8,226 nucleotides of DNA from Actinomycetales bacterium (GTDB lineage: Bacteria > Actinomycetota > Actinomycetes > Actinomycetales > Dermabacteraceae). The stretch is from positions 1-8,226 of the forward strand of contig JAAZLF010000048.1 in assembly GCA_012799425.1 (NCBI GenBank). Direction: 5' to 3'. Position 1 is the first letter of the stretch; the number at the start of each line of letters is the position of its first letter. The notes under the pieces were generated by a model. That model was not told the DNA's origin. It did not search any database and saw only the letters and a list, made by a program, of their open reading frames with translations. Below are positions 491 through 7,951 of the stretch, one piece after another. The translations under genes and the position numbers were made by a program.

Positions 491-512
491 CCCGGGGCCC
501 CTGGGCCCCGGG
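491..512. terminator. Perfect GC hairpin just after the exonuclease III stop
   Basis: CCCGGGGCCC (491-500) and GGGCCCCGGG (503-512) are perfect reverse complements separated by CT, giving a stem of about 9-10 bp starting 7 bases after the TGA. There is no T-run behind it, as is common for intrinsic terminators of high-GC actinobacteria. A terminator or 3'-stabilising hairpin for the exonuclease III transcript is inferred from position and stem strength. Confidence 0.6.
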
Positions 513-553
513 TCGCTCCCATGCACGCCCGTGCCCGCAGAGCGCAGACAGGA

Positions 554-587
554 GGAGCGGCGCCGCGATCTCTCGCGACGCCGCTCC
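554..587. terminator. Second, longer hairpin after exonuclease III (14 bp, one mismatch)
   Basis: GGAGCGGCG (554-562) pairs with CGCCGCTCC (579-587). After one C/A mismatch (563/578), CGCGA (564-568) pairs with TCGCG (573-577) around a TCTC loop (569-572). The stem therefore has 14 pairs and one mismatch with a tetraloop. It sits between the exonuclease III stop and the candidate promoter of the tad operon, fitting a second or backup terminator that insulates the two units. No T-run follows. Confidence 0.6.
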
Positions 588-603
588 GGACGAGCCATCT
601 GCA

Positions 604-631
604 TTGGGATCAGGCGTACACGCGGTATAGC
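604..631 (+). promoter_or_regulatory. Candidate sigma-70-type promoter for the tad operon
   Basis: TTGGGA (604-609) resembles the -35 TTGACA at four of six positions and TATAGC (626-631) the -10 TATAAT at four of six, with a 16-base spacer. It lies just after the exonuclease III hairpins, in the least GC-rich part of the window. Transcription from here would leave an untranslated leader of roughly 220 bases before ssd. This is pattern matching only; another promoter closer to 860 cannot be excluded. Confidence 0.35.
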
Positions 632-811
632 TGCGGTGGCGCTTTCGACGCCTCACAGCCGGTCCGTTGCGTGGACCACTCGTACGTGGGTTCCGATGCC
701 GGTATTCGTCGTTGTGCAGATCACACTACGCGCCCGTTCAGCGGGGCGCAAGGGTCCCGACGACACTGACGGCACAGACCTCTCCTCCCCATCCCGGGCC
801 CGTCCACCGCC

Positions 812-817
812 AGGAGG
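812..817 (+). promoter_or_regulatory. Orphan Shine-Dalgarno-like AGGAGG upstream of ssd
   Basis: A full AGGAGG lies 42 bases before the assigned ssd ATG at 860, while that ATG itself has no clear SD. The only start-like codon at proper spacing is CTG at 823, which runs only five codons before a TGA at 838. The motif GGAGG (813-817) can also pair with CCTCC (784-788). It may be chance, a leader element, or a sign that ssd translation is controlled in an unusual way. Confidence 0.25.
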
Positions 818-859
818 GCGCCCTGTCCCTGTCCCGCTGAGCGCGGCCAGCATGGCCGC

Positions 860-2020
860 ATGACCAGCACCAGCACTGTCCCCTCCGCCCATGAGATCCC
901 CGTGCCGGGTCTACGGGACGCGATGGTCCCCACCGAACCCGAGCGGTCGTCCCCGGCGCGTCCCCGCCGGCGCCGGTCACGCTTCCCCGGCCCGGCCGCG
1001 CACGGGCCCGCGCACGCACCGCAGGGCAGTCCTCAGGTGGCCTGGATCGGCCCCGGCGGCCCATTGCAGGACCTCGTGAAGGACCATGCGACGGCGGTCG
1101 GTGCCGAGCTGCGCGAGGCCGCCACCGCGGATGCGGCCCACTGCGCGGTGGTCGACGCGTCCGTCCTGGCGGAGCGAGCCCCGACCCTCGGCGGCGACCA
1201 TCGGCCGCTGCTGGTGGTGACCGGGGGCGGAGCGATCCCCGCCGCGCTCTGGTCGCTCGCGCTCGATGTGGGCGCACGCGCCGTGCTCCCCCTCCCCGAC
1301 CGCTCCGAGGAGCTGCTCTCACGGCTCGCGGATCTCGCGCGCCCGCGCACCGCCACCGTGATGATCGGCGTGGCTGGAGGCACCGGGGGTGCCGGCGCCT
1401 CCAGCTTCGCCGCACGCCTAGCAGCTGCGGGACGCCTGCACGGGCCGGTCACGCTGATCGATGCGGACCCGCTGGGCGGGGGCCTCGATCTGCTGGTCGA
1501 GGCGCCGGCGAGAGAGGGGATCGGCTGGGCCGAGGCCGCCGGACTGGGGCCCGACGACGGCGACGCCCTGCGCGACGGCCTGCCCCGGGTGGACGAGGTG
1601 CGGCTGCTGGTCGCACGGGAGGAGCCGGCCCCCGCTCCGGCGGCGCTGGCCGGCACGCTGGCCTCGCTCTCCCCGCTGGGCGGCATCGTGATCGCGGATC
1701 TCGGCGCCGAGATGGTCCCCGTCGCGGCCGAGCACCTGGATCATCTGCTGCTGGTGGTGCCCGCCACCGATCATGCGGTGCGCTCCGCGGCCCGGCGGCT
1801 GCGCTCGTGGCGGCTGCCCGCGGGCCTCGCACAGCTGGTGGTGCGCCGCGGCGGCCCGCTCGGGGTCCGGGACGTCGGCGAGGACCTCTCGCTCTCGCCG
1901 GCCGCCTCCTTCCGCGACAGCCCGCGGGGCACCGTCCCCCTGCTGGACGTGCGCAGGGGGCGCGCAGACCGTGCCGCTCGGACGCTGATGGCCTCCCTCT
2001 GCGAGGAGGCGCGCTCATGA
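860..2020 (+). CDS. ssd: CpaE/MinD-like septum-site-determining protein (Ssd, Rv3660c family)
   Basis: This 386-residue protein matches the actinobacterial 'helicase/secretion neighborhood CpaE-like' family, relatives of ParA/MinD ATPases that accompany Tad pilus genes. M. tuberculosis Rv3660c has been linked to septum-site regulation. The N-terminus (about 1-60) is Pro/Arg-rich and low in complexity. Residues ~60-165 look like a receiver-like pseudo-domain (hydrophobic strands such as PLLVVTGGG and GARAVLPLP). The MinD-like domain starts at VMIGVAGGTGGAGASS (~167-182), continues with TLIDADPLGGGLD (~198-210) and IVIADLG (~276-282), and ends near the C-terminus. In the P-loop both expected lysines are absent (TGGAGAS in place of KGGxGKT). 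The ATG at 860 was chosen because the low-complexity start follows it directly, but its SD is weak; ATG 923 (residue 22) is an alternative. The stop overlaps the tadA start (ATGA). It is the first gene of the operon and probably acts in localisation or regulation of the Tad machine or of division; this is inference from the family. Confidence 0.85.
   Translation: MTSTSTVPSAHEIPVPGLRDAMVPTEPERSSPARPRRRRSRFPGPAAHGPAHAPQGSPQVAWIGPGGPLQDLVKDHATAVGAELREAATADAAHCAVVDASVLAERAPTLGGDHRPLLVVTGGGAIPAALWSLALDVGARAVLPLPDRSEELLSRLADLARPRTATVMIGVAGGTGGAGASSFAARLAAAGRLHGPVTLIDADPLGGGLDLLVEAPAREGIGWAEAAGLGPDDGDALRDGLPRVDEVRLLVAREEPAPAPAALAGTLASLSPLGGIVIADLGAEMVPVAAEHLDHLLLVVPATDHAVRSAARRLRSWRLPAGLAQLVVRRGGPLGVRDVGEDLSLSPAASFRDSPRGTVPLLDVRRGRADRAARTLMASLCEEARS
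2003..2009 (+). promoter_or_regulatory. Ribosome binding site of tadA
   Basis: GAGGAGG lies inside the 3' end of ssd, 7 bases before ATG 2017. This supports the start at 2017 rather than the longer open frame reaching back to 1807, and it indicates coupled translation with ssd. Confidence 0.75.
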
Positions 2021-3261
2021 GCGTCCGGCCCCTTGCTGCCGAGACGGACCTCGCGCCGCTGCTGGAGCTGGTGCGGGAGGACCTGGTGCGCGTGCCCGGC
2101 ACGGTGGACGTCCCCCGTGTCGTGCGCGTGCTGCGCCGTCAGGGGCGGGTGCTGGGAGCGGCCGCGACGCTCGAGCTCACCTCCCGCATCCGCGACCACG
2201 TCGACGGGCTCGGACCGCTGCAGGCCCTGATCGCACCGGGCGTGACCGATGTGCTGGTCAACGACGACGGAACCGTCTGGGTCGATGAGGCGTCGGGGAT
2301 GCGGTGCACCGAGGTGAGGCTGGCAGCAGACGAGGCCAGGGACCTCGCGGTCCGTCTCGCGACCTCCGGCGGGCGCCGGCTCGACGACGCCGTGCCCTGG
2401 GCCGACGCCCACCTCCCCTCAGGCATCCGCTTCCACGCCGTGCTCCCCCCGCTGTCCCCCGGCGGGGCGATCCTCTCGCTGCGCCTGCCCTCGGCCGAGC
2501 GTCTGCAGCTGGATGATCTCGAACGTCTCGGCGCGCTCGATACCGACTGCCGCCACGTGCTGCGGGCGATCATCGCCGCACGGGTCCCGTTCCTGGTCAC
2601 CGGCGGCACGGGCACGGGGAAGTCGACGCTGCTCGCGGCCATGCTGGGTGAGGTGCCCCGCGACGAGAGGATCGTGATCGTCGAGGACGTGCTCGAGCTC
2701 TGCGTCGATCACCCCCATGTGGTGCATCTGCAGTCCCGCCACGCCAACAGCGAGGGCGCCGGCTCGGTGGACCTGACCGAGCTGGTGCGGCAGAGCCTGC
2801 GCATGCGCCCCGACCGGGTGGTCCTCGGGGAGTGCCGCGGTGGCGAGATCCGCGAGCTGCTGCAGGCGCTGAACACCGGACACGAGGGCGGATGCGGCAC
2901 GGTCCATGCGAACACCGCCGCCGACGTGCCCGCCCGGCTGGAGGCGCTCGGAGCTCTCGGCGGGCTCAGCCGCGGGGCACTCGCCGCCCAGGTCGCCAGC
3001 GCTCTGGAGGTGGTGGTCCACCTGGCCCGTCGGGACGGGGTGAGGACGCTCGAGGAGATCGCCTTGCTGCGCCGGGACGACGACGGCATGCTGCGCAGCT
3101 CCACAGCGCTGCGCCGGCGCGCCGGTGGTCTCGAGGAGGGACCCGCGGCGCAGGCCCTCGCCTCCCGGATCGGCGGAGCCTCCCACCGCTCCCCCGATTC
3201 CGAGAGCTCTTCTCGTGTGCCGGCCGCGCGACGCCAGGCAGCGCGCGAGGGGGCGGCATGA
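2017..3261 (+). CDS. tadA: TadA/CpaF-type secretion ATPase
   Basis: A 414-residue hexameric-type motor ATPase of the type II/IV secretion superfamily (PulE/VirB11-like, CpaF branch), which works at the cytoplasmic face of the membrane and energises Flp/Tad pilus assembly or secretion. The N-terminal domain contains GPLQALIAPGVTDVLVNDDG (~65-84). Walker A is GGTGTGKST (196-204), the Asp box IVIVEDVLEL (219-228), Walker B MRPDRVVLGECRGGE (263-277) and the His box TGHEGGCGTVHANT (287-300), all intact. After ~370 there is an Arg/Ser/Ala-rich tail of about 45 residues without recognisable fold, longer than the core family needs. The start at 2017 has a strong SD and an ATGA overlap with ssd; the stop overlaps the next ATG (3258) in the same way. 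It corresponds to Rv3659c and to the 'helicase/secretion neighborhood ATPase' family. It should act with the TadB-TadC platform encoded next. Confidence 0.95.
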   Translation: MSVRPLAAETDLAPLLELVREDLVRVPGTVDVPRVVRVLRRQGRVLGAAATLELTSRIRDHVDGLGPLQALIAPGVTDVLVNDDGTVWVDEASGMRCTEVRLAADEARDLAVRLATSGGRRLDDAVPWADAHLPSGIRFHAVLPPLSPGGAILSLRLPSAERLQLDDLERLGALDTDCRHVLRAIIAARVPFLVTGGTGTGKSTLLAAMLGEVPRDERIVIVEDVLELCVDHPHVVHLQSRHANSEGAGSVDLTELVRQSLRMRPDRVVLGECRGGEIRELLQALNTGHEGGCGTVHANTAADVPARLEALGALGGLSRGALAAQVASALEVVVHLARRDGVRTLEEIALLRRDDDGMLRSSTALRRRAGGLEEGPAAQALASRIGGASHRSPDSESSSRVPAARRQAAREGAA

Positions 3262-4340
3262 TCGCCGCGCTCCTCGTGCTCTCCCCGGCGCTGCTGTGGG
3301 TGCTCGCCCCTCCCCCGCCGGAGGTCGTCGCGGGACCCGCGCCCCGGCGTGCACGTCGTCATGCGGCGGGGCCGCTGGAGATGGCACGACTGGTGGAGCA
3401 GCTGGCCACGGTCATCAGCTCGGGCTCCAGCATCCGCCAGGCCTGGTCCGCGCTGGCCCGTTCCCTCCCTTCCGGGGACCTGCAGGACCTCGCCAAAGGA
3501 GCGGCCGCAGGCGCCGACCTGCGCCGCACCGCCGGTGCACAGCTGCAGCGCTCCGAGATGGTCAGCTCCCTCGGTGCGGCGCTGACGGTGTGCGCGCGCA
3601 CCGGCGCACCGACGGCCGGGATGCTGCAGAGCCTCGCCGACGCGCTGCGCGACCTGCACGACGCCGCCCAGGCCCGCCGCACCGCCTTCGCGGGCCCCCG
3701 CTCGACCGCCCGGATCCTGCTGGTCCTGCCGCTGGCCGGCCTCGGCCTGGGGATGCTGCTGGGCGGGGAGCCGCTGCGCCTGCTGCTGACCTCCCCGGGC
3801 GGGAACCTGCTGGGGCTGACCGGGGCCGCGCTCACGGTGGCCGGCTGGTGGTGGATGCACCGGCTGATCAGACAGGCGGACCCTCCCCGCGAGCATCGGG
3901 TGGACCCCTCGGTGGTCCTCGAGCTGATCGCCGGGGCCCTCGAGTCCGGGCTGCCCCTGGCCCGCTCCGTCGCCGCAGTGGCCGAGTCCCTCGCACCGGG
4001 CCCCGACGCGACCGTCCTGTCCCGTCTGGCCACCGCGCTCACCGCCGGGGTCCCCGCGGCGGAGGCCGCCCGAGCGCTGCCACCGACGTGGGAGGTGCTC
4101 GGCCGCTCCGCGGTCCTCGCGGAGGGCTCCGGCGCGGACCTGGCACGGGTGCTGCGCTCCGCAGCCCGGGACGCCCGCCGGGGCCGTGCCCGCGATGCCG
4201 AGGTGCTGGCGGCCCGGCTCGCCGTCCGCCTGGTGCTCCCCACGGGCCTGACCCTCCTGCCCGCCTTCGTGGCACTCGGCATCATCCCCACGGTGGTGTC
4301 CCTGCTCGGAGGCACGTTCACCCTCACCGCAGGCGGGTAG
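3258..4340 (+). CDS. tadB: TadB-TadC fused inner-membrane platform protein (two T2SSF-like halves)
   Basis: This 360-residue protein of the GspF/T2SSF class is the inner-membrane platform on which the TadA motor acts. It shows two halves. The first has an N-terminal membrane segment (~2-17), a helical cytoplasmic domain (~40-150, with LVEQLATVISSGSSIRQAW and VCARTGAPTAGMLQSLADAL), then two membrane segments (~152-169 and ~183-200 ending GWWWMHRLIR), as in TadB. The second has another helical domain (~217-320, ELIAGALESGLPLARS and LAEGSGADLARVLRSA) and a C-terminal membrane hairpin (AVRLVLPTGLTLLPAF, GIIPTVVSLL, ~322-350), as at the end of TadC. In M. tuberculosis these halves are separate genes (Rv3658c, Rv3657c). 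The start at 3258 overlaps the tadA stop (ATGA) and has GAGGGGG (3247-3253) upstream; the open frame extends back to 2832, but that part is antisense-free shadow within tadA. A 160-base gap with hairpins follows the stop. Confidence 0.88.
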   Translation: MIAALLVLSPALLWVLAPPPPEVVAGPAPRRARRHAAGPLEMARLVEQLATVISSGSSIRQAWSALARSLPSGDLQDLAKGAAAGADLRRTAGAQLQRSEMVSSLGAALTVCARTGAPTAGMLQSLADALRDLHDAAQARRTAFAGPRSTARILLVLPLAGLGLGMLLGGEPLRLLLTSPGGNLLGLTGAALTVAGWWWMHRLIRQADPPREHRVDPSVVLELIAGALESGLPLARSVAAVAESLAPGPDATVLSRLATALTAGVPAAEAARALPPTWEVLGRSAVLAEGSGADLARVLRSAARDARRGRARDAEVLAARLAVRLVLPTGLTLLPAFVALGIIPTVVSLLGGTFTLTAGG

Positions 4341-4352
4341 TGACCTCATGAC

Positions 4353-4481
4353 CACCGGGAAGGACCCGGTGCATCGGCCCTTCCCGGGCCGATGACGGGC
4401 GGCCGGACCGCCCGCCCGGGACGAGGACCCTCGTCCCGGCCCCGGCGGCCCCGGCCGCCCCGGGACGGCGAGCGCCGTCCC
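4353..4481 (+). repeat. Array of six consecutive perfect inverted repeats (hairpins) before the pilin gene
   Basis: The gap between tadBC and the pilin is almost wholly made of head-to-tail hairpins. H1: CACCGGG 4353-4359 with 4365-4371, loop AAGGA. H2: CATCGGCCC 4372-4380 with 4386-4394, loop TTCCC. H3: CGGGCGG 4396-4402 with 4408-4414, loop CCGGA. H4: CCGGGACGAGG 4416-4426 with 4429-4439, nominal loop AC. H5: GGCGGCC 4444-4450 with 4453-4459, nominal loop CC. H6: GGGACGGCG 4462-4470 with 4473-4481, nominal loop AG. All arms are perfect reverse complements. Stems with a 2-base loop would open one pair, leaving 6-10 bp. Spacers are 0, 1, 1, 4 and 2 bases. The array begins 12 bases after the tadBC stop and ends 7 bases before the pilin SD. 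A role as terminator/attenuator, RNase-processing site or mRNA stabiliser is inferred. Confidence 0.8.
4355..4387 (+). promoter_or_regulatory. Alternative 9-bp pairing that excludes hairpins H1 and H2
   Basis: CCGGGAAGG (4355-4363) is the exact reverse complement of CCTTCCCGG (4379-4387). It uses the 5' arm and loop of H1 and the loop and 3' arm of H2, so it cannot coexist with those two hairpins; the loops alone could also kiss (AAGG with CCTT). Mutually exclusive folds are a hallmark of attenuators and switches, but GC-rich complementarity can arise by chance. H1 plus H2 should be the more stable state. Confidence 0.4.
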
Positions 4482-4486
4482 CGCAC

Positions 4487-4495
4487 AGAAGGAGA
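4487..4495 (+). promoter_or_regulatory. Strong ribosome binding site of the pilin gene
   Basis: AGAAGGAGA, with GGAG at 4491-4494, ends 5-6 bases before ATG 4501. It is the best SD of the operon and lies in a short unstructured A-rich stretch directly after hairpin H6. It supports high, independent translation of the pilin. Confidence 0.8.
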
Positions 4496-4500
4496 AGAAC

Positions 4501-4701
4501 ATGTCCCTCACGAAAGAGCGGCTGCGCCGCACCCTCGACCGCGTGATGCGGGACGAGCGCGGCGCCTCGACCGCCGAGTACGCGATCACGGTGCTCGCCG
4601 CCTGCGGCTTCGCCGCTGTCCTGGTCGCCCTGCTGGCCTCCGGGGAGGTGCGCGAGCTGCTGATGGGCATCATCACCTCGGCACTGTCGAAGGGGTCGTG
4701 A
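4501..4701 (+). CDS. Flp-type pilin / DUF4244-like small pilin subunit
   Basis: A 66-residue protein with a charged N-terminal leader (to R20), a prepilin-peptidase site DERG^ASTAEYAI (cleavage expected between G21 and A22, Glu at +5 and Tyr at +6 of the mature protein), and one hydrophobic segment (~29-48). The mature form would have 45 residues, typical of Flp pilins and the actinobacterial DUF4244 proteins in this neighbourhood. It is probably the major subunit of the pilus or pseudopilus assembled by TadA and TadBC. It is the only gene of the operon not coupled to the one before it: a 160-base hairpin-filled leader and a strong SD precede it. Its TGA overlaps the tadE ATG by one base (TGATG), and a 13-bp hairpin follows inside tadE. 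No prepilin peptidase gene is present in the window. The class is sure; that it is the major pilin is inference. Confidence 0.9.
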   Translation: MSLTKERLRRTLDRVMRDERGASTAEYAITVLAACGFAAVLVALLASGEVRELLMGIITSALSKGS

Positions 4702-5096
4702 TGCCGCGGTCCTCCCGGTCGTCCCGTCTGCGGGACGACCGGGGGTCCGCCACCGCGGAGACCGCGATCGTGCTGCCCGTGGTGGTGGTCATGGTGATGG
4801 TCGTGCTCCTGACCGGAGCCGGCCTCGGCACCCAGCTGCGTCTCGAATCCGCGGCGCGCGGCGCCGCCCGGGAGATGGCCCGCGGGGAGGATCCCTCCGC
4901 CGCGACAGCCGTCGCGCAGCGCATCGGGGGCGAGGGCACGGCGGTCGAGATCACCACGGCGGGCGACTGGGCGCGGGTCGAGGTCACCCGCACCCTGCGG
5001 GCCCCGGCCGGGGCGCTGTCCGGGGCGAGCTGGGACCTCTCCGCAGACGCCAAGGCACGGCTCGAACCGCACCTTCTCACCGGTGACGGGCCATGA
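4701..5096 (+). CDS. tadE: TadE-family minor pilin
   Basis: A 131-residue membrane-anchored protein of the TadE family, pseudopilin-like components of Tad machines. The basic leader ends in DDRG^SATAETAIVLPVV (G15/S16, Glu20 at +5), the same class of prepilin-peptidase site as in the upstream pilin, and runs into one membrane segment (~21-41). The remainder (~45-131) is the external domain, with the typical QLRLESAARGAAREMARGE helix followed by beta-rich sequence (AVEITTAGDWARVEVTRTL). The ATG at 4701 has AAGGGG (4690-4695) five bases upstream; GTG 4698 is in frame and is an alternative. The frame is open back to 4392, but that part overlaps the hairpins and the pilin and is not coding. The first codons lie in a 13-bp hairpin. 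The stop overlaps the next start (ATGA). Confidence 0.88.
   Translation: MPRSSRSSRLRDDRGSATAETAIVLPVVVVMVMVVLLTGAGLGTQLRLESAARGAAREMARGEDPSAATAVAQRIGGEGTAVEITTAGDWARVEVTRTLRAPAGALSGASWDLSADAKARLEPHLLTGDGP
4712..4745 (+). promoter_or_regulatory. 13-bp perfect hairpin straddling the start of tadE, just after the pilin stop
   Basis: CCCGGTCGTCCCG (4714-4726) and CGGGACGACCGGG (4731-4743) are perfect reverse complements around a TCTG loop; a T/G wobble (4713/4744) and a C/G pair (4712/4745) extend it to 15. It begins 11 bases after the pilin stop. It is the longest perfect stem noticed in the window. It lies in codons 4-15 of tadE, where the protein is low in complexity (SSRSSRLRDDRG). Likely effects are 3' protection of the pilin message, partial termination, or reduced tadE translation; all are inference. 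Confidence 0.7.
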
Positions 5097-5425
5097 GCAG
5101 CGGTGCCGCATCGGTCCTGGCCTGGACCGGGGCCGCCACCGCCGTGATCGGCGGATTGTCCCTGCTCGGGGTCGGGACCCTCGCTCAGTCCCGGGCCGCG
5201 ACGGCCGCGGACCTCGCCTCCCTCGCCGGCGCCGATGCACTCGCCGCCGCGCACGCCCAGCCCTGTGCGGTCGCCCGCGAGGCCGCCGCCCGCAACGGCG
5301 CCGTGCTGCGGCACTGCGAACTGCGCGACTGGGACGTGCTGGTCGAGGTCCAGGTCGATGCCTCCCCGCTGCCGTCGGCGACCGCTCGCTCCCGAGCCGG
5401 CCCCGGCCCGGCAGATCTGCCATGA
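5093..5425 (+). CDS. Second TadE-like protein (Rv3654c / 'helicase/secretion neighborhood TadE-like' family)
   Basis: A 110-residue protein with one N-terminal membrane segment (~8-30), followed by AQSRAATAADLASLAGADAL (~31-50), the family's characteristic 'RA.AAADLA.LA' stretch. Two cysteines (C58 in QPCAVAREAAARNG and C75 in LRHCE) have the spacing usual in this family and may form a disulfide outside the membrane. A short strand-rich end (WDVLVEVQVDA) and a Pro/Ala tail follow. Unlike the pilin and TadE it lacks an RG^xxTAE processing site; the N-terminus reads MSSGAASVLAW, so it may stay unprocessed. The start overlaps the tadE stop (ATGA) with only GGTGACGGG as a weak SD, indicating coupled translation. 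It is the last gene of the operon. The exact role is unknown; a minor pilin or export-associated component is inferred from neighbours. Confidence 0.82.
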   Translation: MSSGAASVLAWTGAATAVIGGLSLLGVGTLAQSRAATAADLASLAGADALAAAHAQPCAVAREAAARNGAVLRHCELRDWDVLVEVQVDASPLPSATARSRAGPGPADLP

Positions 5426-5466
5426 GCTACCCGCCGATCCGTCCGCCGCCAGCCCTCCGCCGCTCG

Positions 5467-5490
5467 GTCCCCTGCCCGGCGGCGCAGGAC
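5467..5490. terminator. Weak hairpin in the convergent gap between the tad operon and the helicase
   Basis: The 69-base gap between two converging genes has CCTGC (5471-5475) pairing with GCAGG (5484-5488), or alternatively GTCC (5467-5470) plus TGC (5473-5475) with GCA plus GGAC (5484-5490) and a two-base bulge. It is weaker than the other hairpins here and has no T-run. A bidirectional terminator is expected at this place, but the structural support is modest. Confidence 0.3.
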
Positions 5491-5494
5491 GGGC

Positions 5495-7951
5495 TCAGGG
5501 CCTCAGCAGCTCCAGCAGCCGCACCGCCTCCCGCTTCGACAGGGGTTCGTTGCCGTTGCCGCACTTCGGGGACACCACGCAGGCGGGACAGCCCGACTCA
5601 CAGCCGCACTCGCCGATCATGTCGGCGGTGGCACGCAGCCAGGCGTCGGCGTCGTCGGCGCCGCGCTCGGCGAAGCCGGCCCCGCCCGGTGCCCCGTCGT
5701 ACACGAAGATCGTGGGCTCGCCGGTGTCCTCGTGCAGCGCTGCGGACAGCCCTCCGATGTCCCAGCGGTCGCAGGTCGCCAGCAGAGGGAGCATCGAGAT
5801 CGCGGCGTGCTCGGCCGCGTGCAGCGCCCCGGGCAGCTCCTCGCCGGGGATCTCGGCGGCGTCGGTCCGCTCGCGCGGGATCACCCACCACACCGCCTTG
5901 GTGGTCAGGGTGCGCGGCGGCAGGTCCAGCGGATGCTGCGCGAGCACGGCCTGGGTGAACACGTCACGCATCTGATATCCGGTGACCTGATCGGTGACGT
6001 CCACCGTGCCGAAGCACAGCTGCACCCCGCCGGCCCACTCGACCTCACGATCGATCTGCCGGATCCGCAGGGTCGAGGACGACTGCGGATGGGTGGTGTG
6101 CAGCGGATCCTCCCGGTGCACGAACGCCGCCGCCTGCTCGACATCCAGATGATCGACCACATAGCTGCGGCCCTGATGGAGGTAGACGGCGCCGTCATGC
6201 ACCTGGGTGTGCGCGCTCGCGGCATCCACCGTGCCCAGCAGCACCCCGCTGGCCTGCTCGACGATCCGCACCGGCTCCCCGCCGCTGCCGCGCAGATCGG
6301 TGAGGCCGTGCGCGGACTCGCTCATCGTCCAGTACCATCCCGTGCTCCGCGAACGCAGCACTCCGCGAGCGGCGAGGGTGGTCAGCAGGTCGCGGGCGGT
6401 GGGTCCGAAGATCCCCTCCTCGCCGTCGCGGATCGCGAGCTCGGAGGCGGCGGCGCACAGGTGCGGGGTCATCACATACGGGTTCCCGGGGTCGAAGACC
6501 GATGCCTCCACCTCGGCACCGAAGATCGTCTCGGGGTGATGGACCACGTAGGTGTCCAGCGGGTCCTCCCGGGCGACGAACACGGCGAGCGCTCCCCCGT
6601 CGGCGTCCTGCCTGCGCCCGGCGCGGCCGAACTGCTGCCACAGCGAGGCACGGGTGCCCGGCCAGCCGGCGACCACCACCGCATCCAGGCCGGCGATATC
6701 GATGCCCAGCTCGAGCGCGTTGGTCGAAGCCAGCGCCTTCAACGTGCCCGAGCGCAGATCGTCCTCCAGGGTGCGCCGCTCGCGGGCGAGATACCCGCCG
6801 CGGTAGGCGGCCACGCGCGAGGCGCGGTCCAGCAGCCCGGGAGCCCCGGTCTGCTCGCCCTTCTGGGTGAGCAGCCGCTGGGCACCGCTGGACACCAGCT
6901 CCGCCCCGCGCCGGGAGCGGGCGAAGACGAGGGTCTGCACGTCCCGCTCGACGAGGTCGGCCAGAATCGTGGCGGCCTCGCTGGTCGCGGAGCGGCGCAG
7001 CGGGTCCTCGGCCCGTCTCGTGTCGTCGTCGGCACCGTGCTCGTCGTCCTCGGGCCCGGCCCCGTGCACCGCGTCGTCTGCGCCGCAGTCCGTCCAGCGC
7101 GCCGGGTCCCCGCGCCCGTCGACGCGCGTGCGGGTCCCCGGCTCCCACAGCCCGATGGTGAGCCCCGCCCGCGGCGAGCCGTCCTCGGTGACCGCCTCGA
7201 CGTCCCGCCCGATCAGGCGCGAGGCGGACAGCTCGGGATTCGCGGTGGTGGCCGAGGCGAGGATGAACGTGGGATCCGCGCGATAGTGGGCGGCGATCCG
7301 GCGCAGGCGCCGCATCACCATCGACACATGGCTGCCGAACACCCCGCGGTAGCTGTGGCACTCGTCGATCACCACGTAGCGCAGCGCCCGGAAGAAGTGC
7401 GCCCACTGCTCGTGCCCGGGCAGGATCCCAAAGTGCAGCATGTCGGGGTTGGTCAGCACCACGGTGCCATGGCGGCGCACCCAGCGACGCTGCTCGGCGG
7501 GGGTGTCGCCGTCGTAGACCGCGACGCGGGCATCGCGGATCCCGGCGCCGTCGGCCATCGCGGTGATGTTGGTGAGCTGGTCCGCGGCGAGCGCCTTGGT
7601 GGGCGAGAGGTACAGGGTGGTGGCACGCGGCGCCAGGTAGTCGTGCTCGCGGGCACCGATCGCGGTGAGCACCGGCAGCAGATAGGCCAGCGACTTGCCG
7701 GAGGCGGTGGCGGTGGCGAGCACCACGTCCTGACCGTCATGGGCACGCTGTGCGGCCTGTTCCTGATGGATCCACGGGGCGGTGATGCCGCGCTCGCCCA
7801 GATGCTGGACCAGGCGCGGGTCGACCCATCCCGGGAAGCTGCCGCGGCGCCCGGCGCGGGCGGGCCTGCGCTCGACGTGGGTGAGACAGGTGCGGCGGGT
7901 CAGCGGCGCCGTCAGGTCGGCCAGGAGATCCTCGGCTGCACCTGCCCGCAT
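5495..7951 (-). CDS. DECH-box helicase with C-terminal four-Cys MrfA/DUF1998-type domain (Rv3649 family)
   Basis: An 818-residue superfamily 2 DNA helicase, the 'helicase/secretion neighborhood DEAH-box' family, related to B. subtilis MrfA (YprA), which acts in repair of mitomycin-type damage. From ATG 7951: HQEQA (62-66), motif I ATATASGKS (79-87), Ia PTKALAADQ (117-125), LTNPDMLH (166-173), motif II VIDECHSY (194-201; DECH in place of DEAH), motif III LASATTANP (231-239), motif IV TLVFARSRRGAEL (340-352), motif V STNALELGIDIAG (409-421) and motif VI QQFGRAGRRQ (439-448). The C-terminal domain ends with C784-x3-C788-x2-C791-x5-C797, the family's proposed zinc cluster, then PLSKREAVRLLELL. 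An acidic insert (~282-315) joins the two RecA lobes. ATG 7951 has GGGGAG and GAGGAG upstream and leaves 22 residues before the conserved LTHV, usual for the family; GTG 7999 (with GGAG at 8007-8010) and TTG 8038 are in-frame alternatives. It converges on the tad operon and diverges from the gene at 8047. Confidence 0.93.
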   Translation of the reverse strand: MRAGAAEDLLADLTAPLTRRTCLTHVERRPARAGRRGSFPGWVDPRLVQHLGERGITAPWIHQEQAAQRAHDGQDVVLATATASGKSLAYLLPVLTAIGAREHDYLAPRATTLYLSPTKALAADQLTNITAMADGAGIRDARVAVYDGDTPAEQRRWVRRHGTVVLTNPDMLHFGILPGHEQWAHFFRALRYVVIDECHSYRGVFGSHVSMVMRRLRRIAAHYRADPTFILASATTANPELSASRLIGRDVEAVTEDGSPRAGLTIGLWEPGTRTRVDGRGDPARWTDCGADDAVHGAGPEDDEHGADDDTRRAEDPLRRSATSEAATILADLVERDVQTLVFARSRRGAELVSSGAQRLLTQKGEQTGAPGLLDRASRVAAYRGGYLARERRTLEDDLRSGTLKALASTNALELGIDIAGLDAVVVAGWPGTRASLWQQFGRAGRRQDADGGALAVFVAREDPLDTYVVHHPETIFGAEVEASVFDPGNPYVMTPHLCAAASELAIRDGEEGIFGPTARDLLTTLAARGVLRSRSTGWYWTMSESAHGLTDLRGSGGEPVRIVEQASGVLLGTVDAASAHTQVHDGAVYLHQGRSYVVDHLDVEQAAAFVHREDPLHTTHPQSSSTLRIRQIDREVEWAGGVQLCFGTVDVTDQVTGYQMRDVFTQAVLAQHPLDLPPRTLTTKAVWWVIPRERTDAAEIPGEELPGALHAAEHAAISMLPLLATCDRWDIGGLSAALHEDTGEPTIFVYDGAPGGAGFAERGADDADAWLRATADMIGECGCESGCPACVVSPKCGNGNEPLSKREAVRLLELLRP

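Follow-up and report, generated by a model that had tools for sequence, protein, structure and literature searches.

Six perfect hairpins stand back to back in front of a predicted pilin gene, and the question raised by this locus is what maintains them and what they might do there. The DNA analysed here is a stretch of 8,226 nucleotides (the window), contig C307 of a fragmented source assembly (752 contigs, 88.7% complete, 6.0% contamination). It carries a Brachybacterium tad operon in which the hairpin-filled gap sits between tadC and a gene of the DUF4244 family (Pfam), and when named genomes were scanned with the TadC protein, nine loci were confirmed, all of them in Brachybacterium. The genes and signals around the gap are the following.

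2017–3261, secretion ATPase of the TadA kind (Pfam)
3258–4340, + strand, tadC-like gene with a T2SSF domain of the TadB/C kind, upstream of the array (Pfam PF00482, E = 1.1e-25)
4488–4494, + strand, Shine-Dalgarno sequence of the pilin gene, GAAGGAG, outside the hairpins (sequence)
4501–4701, + strand, DUF4244 gene, predicted Tad/Flp pilin (Pfam PF14029, E = 1.8e-21)
4701–5096, + strand, tadE-like gene with its start overlapping the pilin stop (Pfam PF07811, E = 3.1e-8; sequence)

Pfam returned no match for the protein at 860–2020, which occupies the place of TadZ, or for the protein at 5093–5425. The DUF4244 protein is probably the pilin, judging from its place and its family.

The original prediction described six perfect inverted repeats in this gap and held that their tiling is difficult to ascribe to base composition. 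All six are present at 4353–4481, filling 129 bases ahead of the predicted pilin gene with spacers of 0–4 nt.

4353–4371, + strand, hairpin 1: 7 bp, loop of 5
4372–4394, + strand, hairpin 2: 9 bp, loop of 5; 5 of 9 pairs changed on both sides among nine aligned leaders (see below)
4396–4414, + strand, hairpin 3: 7 bp, loop of 5; alternative long-range pairing with hairpin 5
4416–4439, + strand, hairpin 4: 11 bp, loop of 2 (as RNA, 10 bp, loop of 4); 4 of 10 pairs changed on both sides
4444–4459, + strand, hairpin 5: 7 bp, loop of 2 (as RNA, 6 bp, loop of 4); five inner pairs invariant in the nine leaders
4462–4481, + strand, hairpin 6: 9 bp, loop of 2 (as RNA, 8 bp, loop of 4); ends 19 nt 5′ of the pilin ATG

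The claim about composition holds as well. The stretch 4352–4486 is 84% GC, and at most three disjoint perfect hairpins of at least 7 bp arose in any of its 5000 dinucleotide shuffles, against the six observed; the predicted RNA fold of 4341–4510 has z = −6.3 relative to 200 shuffles, none of which folds as well. The 15 best-tiled 135-nt stretches of the window all overlap the array, and the 39,760 130-nt segments taken from a 400-kb sample of a near relative all stayed below 40 paired positions (best 38; the window's array has 47). No Rfam family matched the window above its gathering threshold. A search for a second copy in the genome returned only the locus itself over the full length, and the six further best-matching places (L003–L008) hold no such array; a dispersed repeat of the REP/BIME type was rejected because the array is not present in many copies. 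Origin by tandem duplication had weak backing (5/29 arrays at P ≤ 0.05 against a pair-preserving shuffle) and UNCG tetraloops make up 10 of 95 four-base loops, so neither is claimed.

The predicted fold of the window also contains a competing arrangement. A perfect 10-bp long-range helix between 4397–4406 and 4451–4460, joining parts of hairpins 3 and 5, rivals the local hairpins, and the window's leader could on this modelling adopt two conformations. Between 5 and 10 of the 10 pairs of this helix form across the nine leaders, and folds vary among species.

Arrays of this kind recur in most of the genus. TadC was found in 37 of 38 Brachybacterium genomes, the window's own counted, and in all 37 loci the pilin start lies 81–291 nt downstream of tadC. 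When stems of at least 6 bp with one G·U allowed per stem are counted, these gaps hold one to seven hairpins each. The count is above chance (reached by at most 10 of 200 shuffles) in 30/37 gaps, the window among them, and was reached by no shuffle in 15; the number of paired bases is above chance by the same threshold in 33/37, with 0/200 in 25. Seven gaps do not stand out by hairpin count (L025, L027, L033, L041, L042, L043 and L044). Inspection by eye shows that L023, L025 and L027 keep the last stem with imperfect pairs or a bulge, outside the search criteria.

Matched mutations preserve the array's pairing in related Brachybacterium, and this check, like the shuffles, did not refute the original prediction. 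In a sequence-only alignment of nine leaders, picked for similar length and layout in a way that favours alignment, 17 of the 47 pairs of the window's structure (the window being itself one of the nine) changed on both sides and still pair, against a shuffle mean of 8.9 and no value as high in 500 shuffles; slid-partner controls gave one to six covarying pairs. Pairing holds in 88.6% of alignment cells, compared with 34–50% when partners are slid by 1–3 columns, and in 71% of cells of hairpin 6, which is partly misaligned. RNAalifold, run on the same alignment, recovered hairpins 1–5, missed hairpin 6 and added two long-range pairs. Stems also change more slowly than the bases around them: over six pairs of close leaders (two of which share leader L010, with two further pairs shown and excluded from the sum), 24/406 stem positions differ, against 55/354 unpaired positions within the array (P = 1.5e-5). 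Between the window and its nearest relative five base pairs have changed and none is broken; other leader pairs have zero to four broken pairs.

Imperfect stems carry information about the strand on which selection acts, since RNA accepts G·U and not A·C, and an A·C on one strand is a G·U on the other. Among stems that reach 7 bp or more and contain a single imperfect pair, a set in which some stems span hairpins and the species are related, G·T occurs 27 times against 4.8 in shuffles and A·C 8 times against 9.8. C·T (14 against 6.2) and A·G (12 against 6.8) are also raised about twofold, so part of the excess of imperfect stems is not G·U; C·C and G·G are not raised. With duplicate stems removed, 25 G·T and 8 A·C remain, compared with 459 and 485 in the background (P = 0.002). 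This bias points to selection on the sense RNA, the transcript in the pilin direction. Together with covariation and the slower change of stems, it supports the structured RNA leader or intercistronic element that had been proposed.

Position assigns the element to one of its two neighbours. The last hairpin ends 16–21 nt before the pilin start codon in 29/37 gaps, whereas the first hairpin begins anywhere from 0 to 106 nt past the stop of tadC; a fixed distance to the pilin and a variable one to tadC indicate that the element belongs to the pilin leader. In the window, the paired stretch starts 12 nt past tadC, stops 19 nt short of the ATG and takes up most of the gap. A promoter inside the gap was rejected, as TANNNT, the promoter element searched for, is absent from all 37 gaps and from the last 50 nt of tadC. 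A consensus promoter scan of window positions 500–5500 returned no site anywhere and is therefore a weak guide.

Stabilising the pilin mRNA or directing RNase cleavage, two of the roles named in the original prediction, is the best reading of what the array would do. In the form that we put forward, and whose chances we regard as evenly balanced, the array would act as RNA, as a 5′ shield that prolongs the life of the pilin message beyond that of the remaining tad transcript. The most economical account would be differential decay, as described for papBA and cip-cel (see below): one long transcript would be cut before the array and leave a stem-capped pilin–tadE message. We infer each of the four parts of this scheme: transcript, cut, protection and stoichiometry. 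RNA polymerase would read through from an upstream promoter, given a gap without TANNNT, and an endonuclease is predicted to cleave the less structured RNA 5′ of the array. The upstream tad part would then decay and the pilin–tadE part would begin with stacked GC-rich stems, which would block nucleases that attack from 5′ ends, such as those of the RNase J and RNase E kinds. Going by the extent of the ribosome footprint, the last hairpin ends roughly where an initiating ribosome would begin its cover, which would leave little naked RNA before the coding region. Pilin would then outnumber the assembly machinery. A Tad pilus would presumably need its pilin in excess, an unequal demand for subunits that follows from what a pilin does. 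In the 37 leaders the Shine-Dalgarno region has a mean predicted unpaired probability of 0.51, against 0.33 in the gap upstream; the window's own region is predicted at 0.36, which counts against the shield reading.

As a conserved RNA element the array is real; its kind is known, its multi-hairpin form is unusual, and its putative function can be weighed against systems described in the literature. It shares with elements of selective RNA processing and stabilisation a U-tract-less stem-loop in an operon gap, where the subunits are presumably needed unequally, and a pairing conserved at the RNA level. In papBA of E. coli, too, a hairpin separates a gene for regulation or assembly from the gene for the major pilus subunit within a single operon; experiments showed that RNase E cuts 5′ of this RNA hairpin, and the downstream pilin message is the stable one (PMC5927463). 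The present case differs in having up to seven hairpins, a cut that is predicted, and an unrelated pilus and phylum. The cip-cel operon, which encodes a complex of unequal subunits, also has U-tract-less stem-loops in its intergenic gaps, and a stem-loop added upstream lifted a reporter's half-life from 5.3 to 45.3 min (PMC4423207, PMC10311766 for the operon; PMC10311766 for the reporter). In these papers, cip-cel has one or two stem-loops per gap, with measured cuts and half-lives and mostly 3′ protection, whereas the array is multi-hairpin and keeps a fixed distance to the downstream start codon.

The esxB leader of M. smegmatis speaks against a shield. It resembles the array as an actinobacterial intergenic hairpin leader ahead of a downstream message of higher abundance and stability, and differs in having two hairpins, its own promoter and a mapped cut; its double hairpin failed to stabilise a reporter, whose level rose when both hairpins were deleted (PMC11728522). 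The same paper reports mRNA half-life across the M. smegmatis transcriptome to be unlinked to structure near 5′ ends. Control of subunit excess has been worked out in E. coli and clostridia, and one direct actinobacterial test, esxB, was negative (PMC11728522). The 37 leaders, with varied hairpin number, near-fixed distance to the start codon and strong covariation, are ready-made constructs for studying the protection of mRNA in these GC-rich bacteria, and if stacked 5′ hairpins do protect mRNA they would be a compact part for setting gene ratios. A search of the open-licence literature found no paper that brings together Brachybacterium, tad and pilus, and the unreported status of the array rests on that scope.

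The same stems could instead guard the message on their other side. As a 3′ shield of the upstream tad message, the array would follow a cut near the pilin start and block 3′-to-5′ exonucleases, as in malE and cip-cel. Protective stem-loops are indeed commoner at 3′ ends, with 27/33 processing stem-loops of C. cellulolyticum protecting 3′ ends in PMC4423207 (see also PMC5927463), a count that weighs against a 5′ shield, and in the window the first hairpin begins just past the tadC stop. We nevertheless consider this role rather unlikely, since the array's position is tied to the pilin start and not to the tadC stop, and since the subunit expected in excess is the pilin and not TadC.

Termination or attenuation, another role in the original prediction, is disfavoured, and we think it improbable that the array passes only part of the transcripts on to the pilin gene. 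The case for it comes from RNA-seq of 13 genomes, in which U-tract-less hairpin clusters close after stop codons were proposed as terminators (PMC8355165). In such clusters the several hairpins are spaced by less than 15 nt and lie within about 80 nt of a stop codon; the array has that layout, with 0–4 nt between hairpins and 12 nt to tadC. The published clusters, however, separate operons (PMC8355165). Here pilin and tadE belong to the operon that contains the array and continue on its strand, TANNNT is missing between array and pilin, and the array keeps its distance to the gene downstream of it, all of which speaks against a terminator of this class. An intrinsic, Rho-independent terminator was rejected for want of a U tract, as TTTT is absent from all 37 gaps and window positions 500–5500 contain no terminator-like site on the + strand. 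Termination would also reduce the subunit most needed.

Another alternative, to which we likewise give little credence, is that the hairpins mask an untranslated, C-rich stretch against Rho or R-loops and thereby let transcription continue into the pilin gene. The 37 gaps are C-rich (2527 C, 1947 G) and pairing spans most of the gap in the window. A short gap would serve this purpose, however, and in other genera of the family the gaps measure 56–143 nt; masking also leaves the fixed distance to the start codon unexplained. It is very improbable that the palindromes are tandem DNA sites for a protein, a purely DNA-level role raised in the original prediction, for although they are perfect, have short loops and occupy the region where order-level relatives carry paired YCCACAGG motifs, the bias for G·T over A·C is unexpected for double-stranded DNA, where no strand preference should appear, and loop and stem sequences vary between hairpins.

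Comparison with relatives outside the genus bears on the age of the 5′ shield candidate. Gaps in other genera of the family hold zero to two hairpins (8/9 loci readable). A single hairpin whose stem has at least 7 bp and whose end falls 13–28 nt before the start codon occurs in 24/37 genus loci (2.9 expected), 1/8 in the family (0.2), 9/34 in the order (2.2) and 4/15 in the class (0.7). For this count start codons were chosen by script, and each outside group lost one locus whose start was not clear. One possible history is that a lone hairpin came first, ahead of the pilin ribosome site, and that Brachybacterium later expanded it into an array.

Order-level loci have a distinct motif upstream of the pilin gene. 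TCCACA occurs 38 times in the 260-nt pilin-upstream stretches of 34 order loci, compared with 0.035 per stretch elsewhere in the examined loci, and once in reverse orientation. Two YCCACA boxes in the same direction lie 26–31 bp apart in 16/35 order loci, exactly 28 bp in 9 (loci with boxes include L150, L153, L154, L158, L162 and L171). Upstream boxes are absent from the 8 family and 15 class loci and present in 1/37 in the genus. The TCCACA/YCCACA motif resembles the actinobacterial DnaA box, TTGTCCACA. A bolder idea, which we hold to be doubtful, is that the array is an evolvable RNA rheostat: hairpin number, from one to seven, would set the lifetime of the pilin message and hence the ratio of subunit to machine, and RNA control would have replaced the DNA-level YCCACAGG boxes kept by many order relatives.

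In five genus genomes (pilin loci L012, L018, L022, L027 and L038) an insert splits the pilin gene near codon ~33. The insert loci are L110 in genome G008, L111/L112 in G009, L113/L114 in G026, L115/L116 in G011 and L117/L118 in G028, and four inserts with both ends on one contig measure about 18.7, 27.0, 21.8 and 27.3 kb. Near one end, each of the four has a large serine recombinase with Resolvase and Recombinase domains. The G008 and G011 inserts contain a MobA/VirD2 relaxase; G008 also carries a C5 DNA methylase, G011 type I restriction proteins, and G009 TniQ and a Mu-type transposase. Such features suggest an integrative mobilisable element with the pilin gene as its target. Proteins of about 1000 aa are encoded in three inserts (L110:3266-6247, L113:9746-12826 and L115:2370-5327); that of G008 has a weak PHROG match to a DNA polymerase (4.6e-5), and those of L113 and L115 have no Pfam match. 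In G015, a sixth genome, the junction coincides with the end of one contig, and another contig has an uninterrupted pilin gene (L119, L026). An order-level scan gave weak best DUF4244 matches in G295, G302, G348 and G369. The last three have two DUF4244 matches each, like the split genes of the genus, and insertion into the pilin gene may recur in other families.
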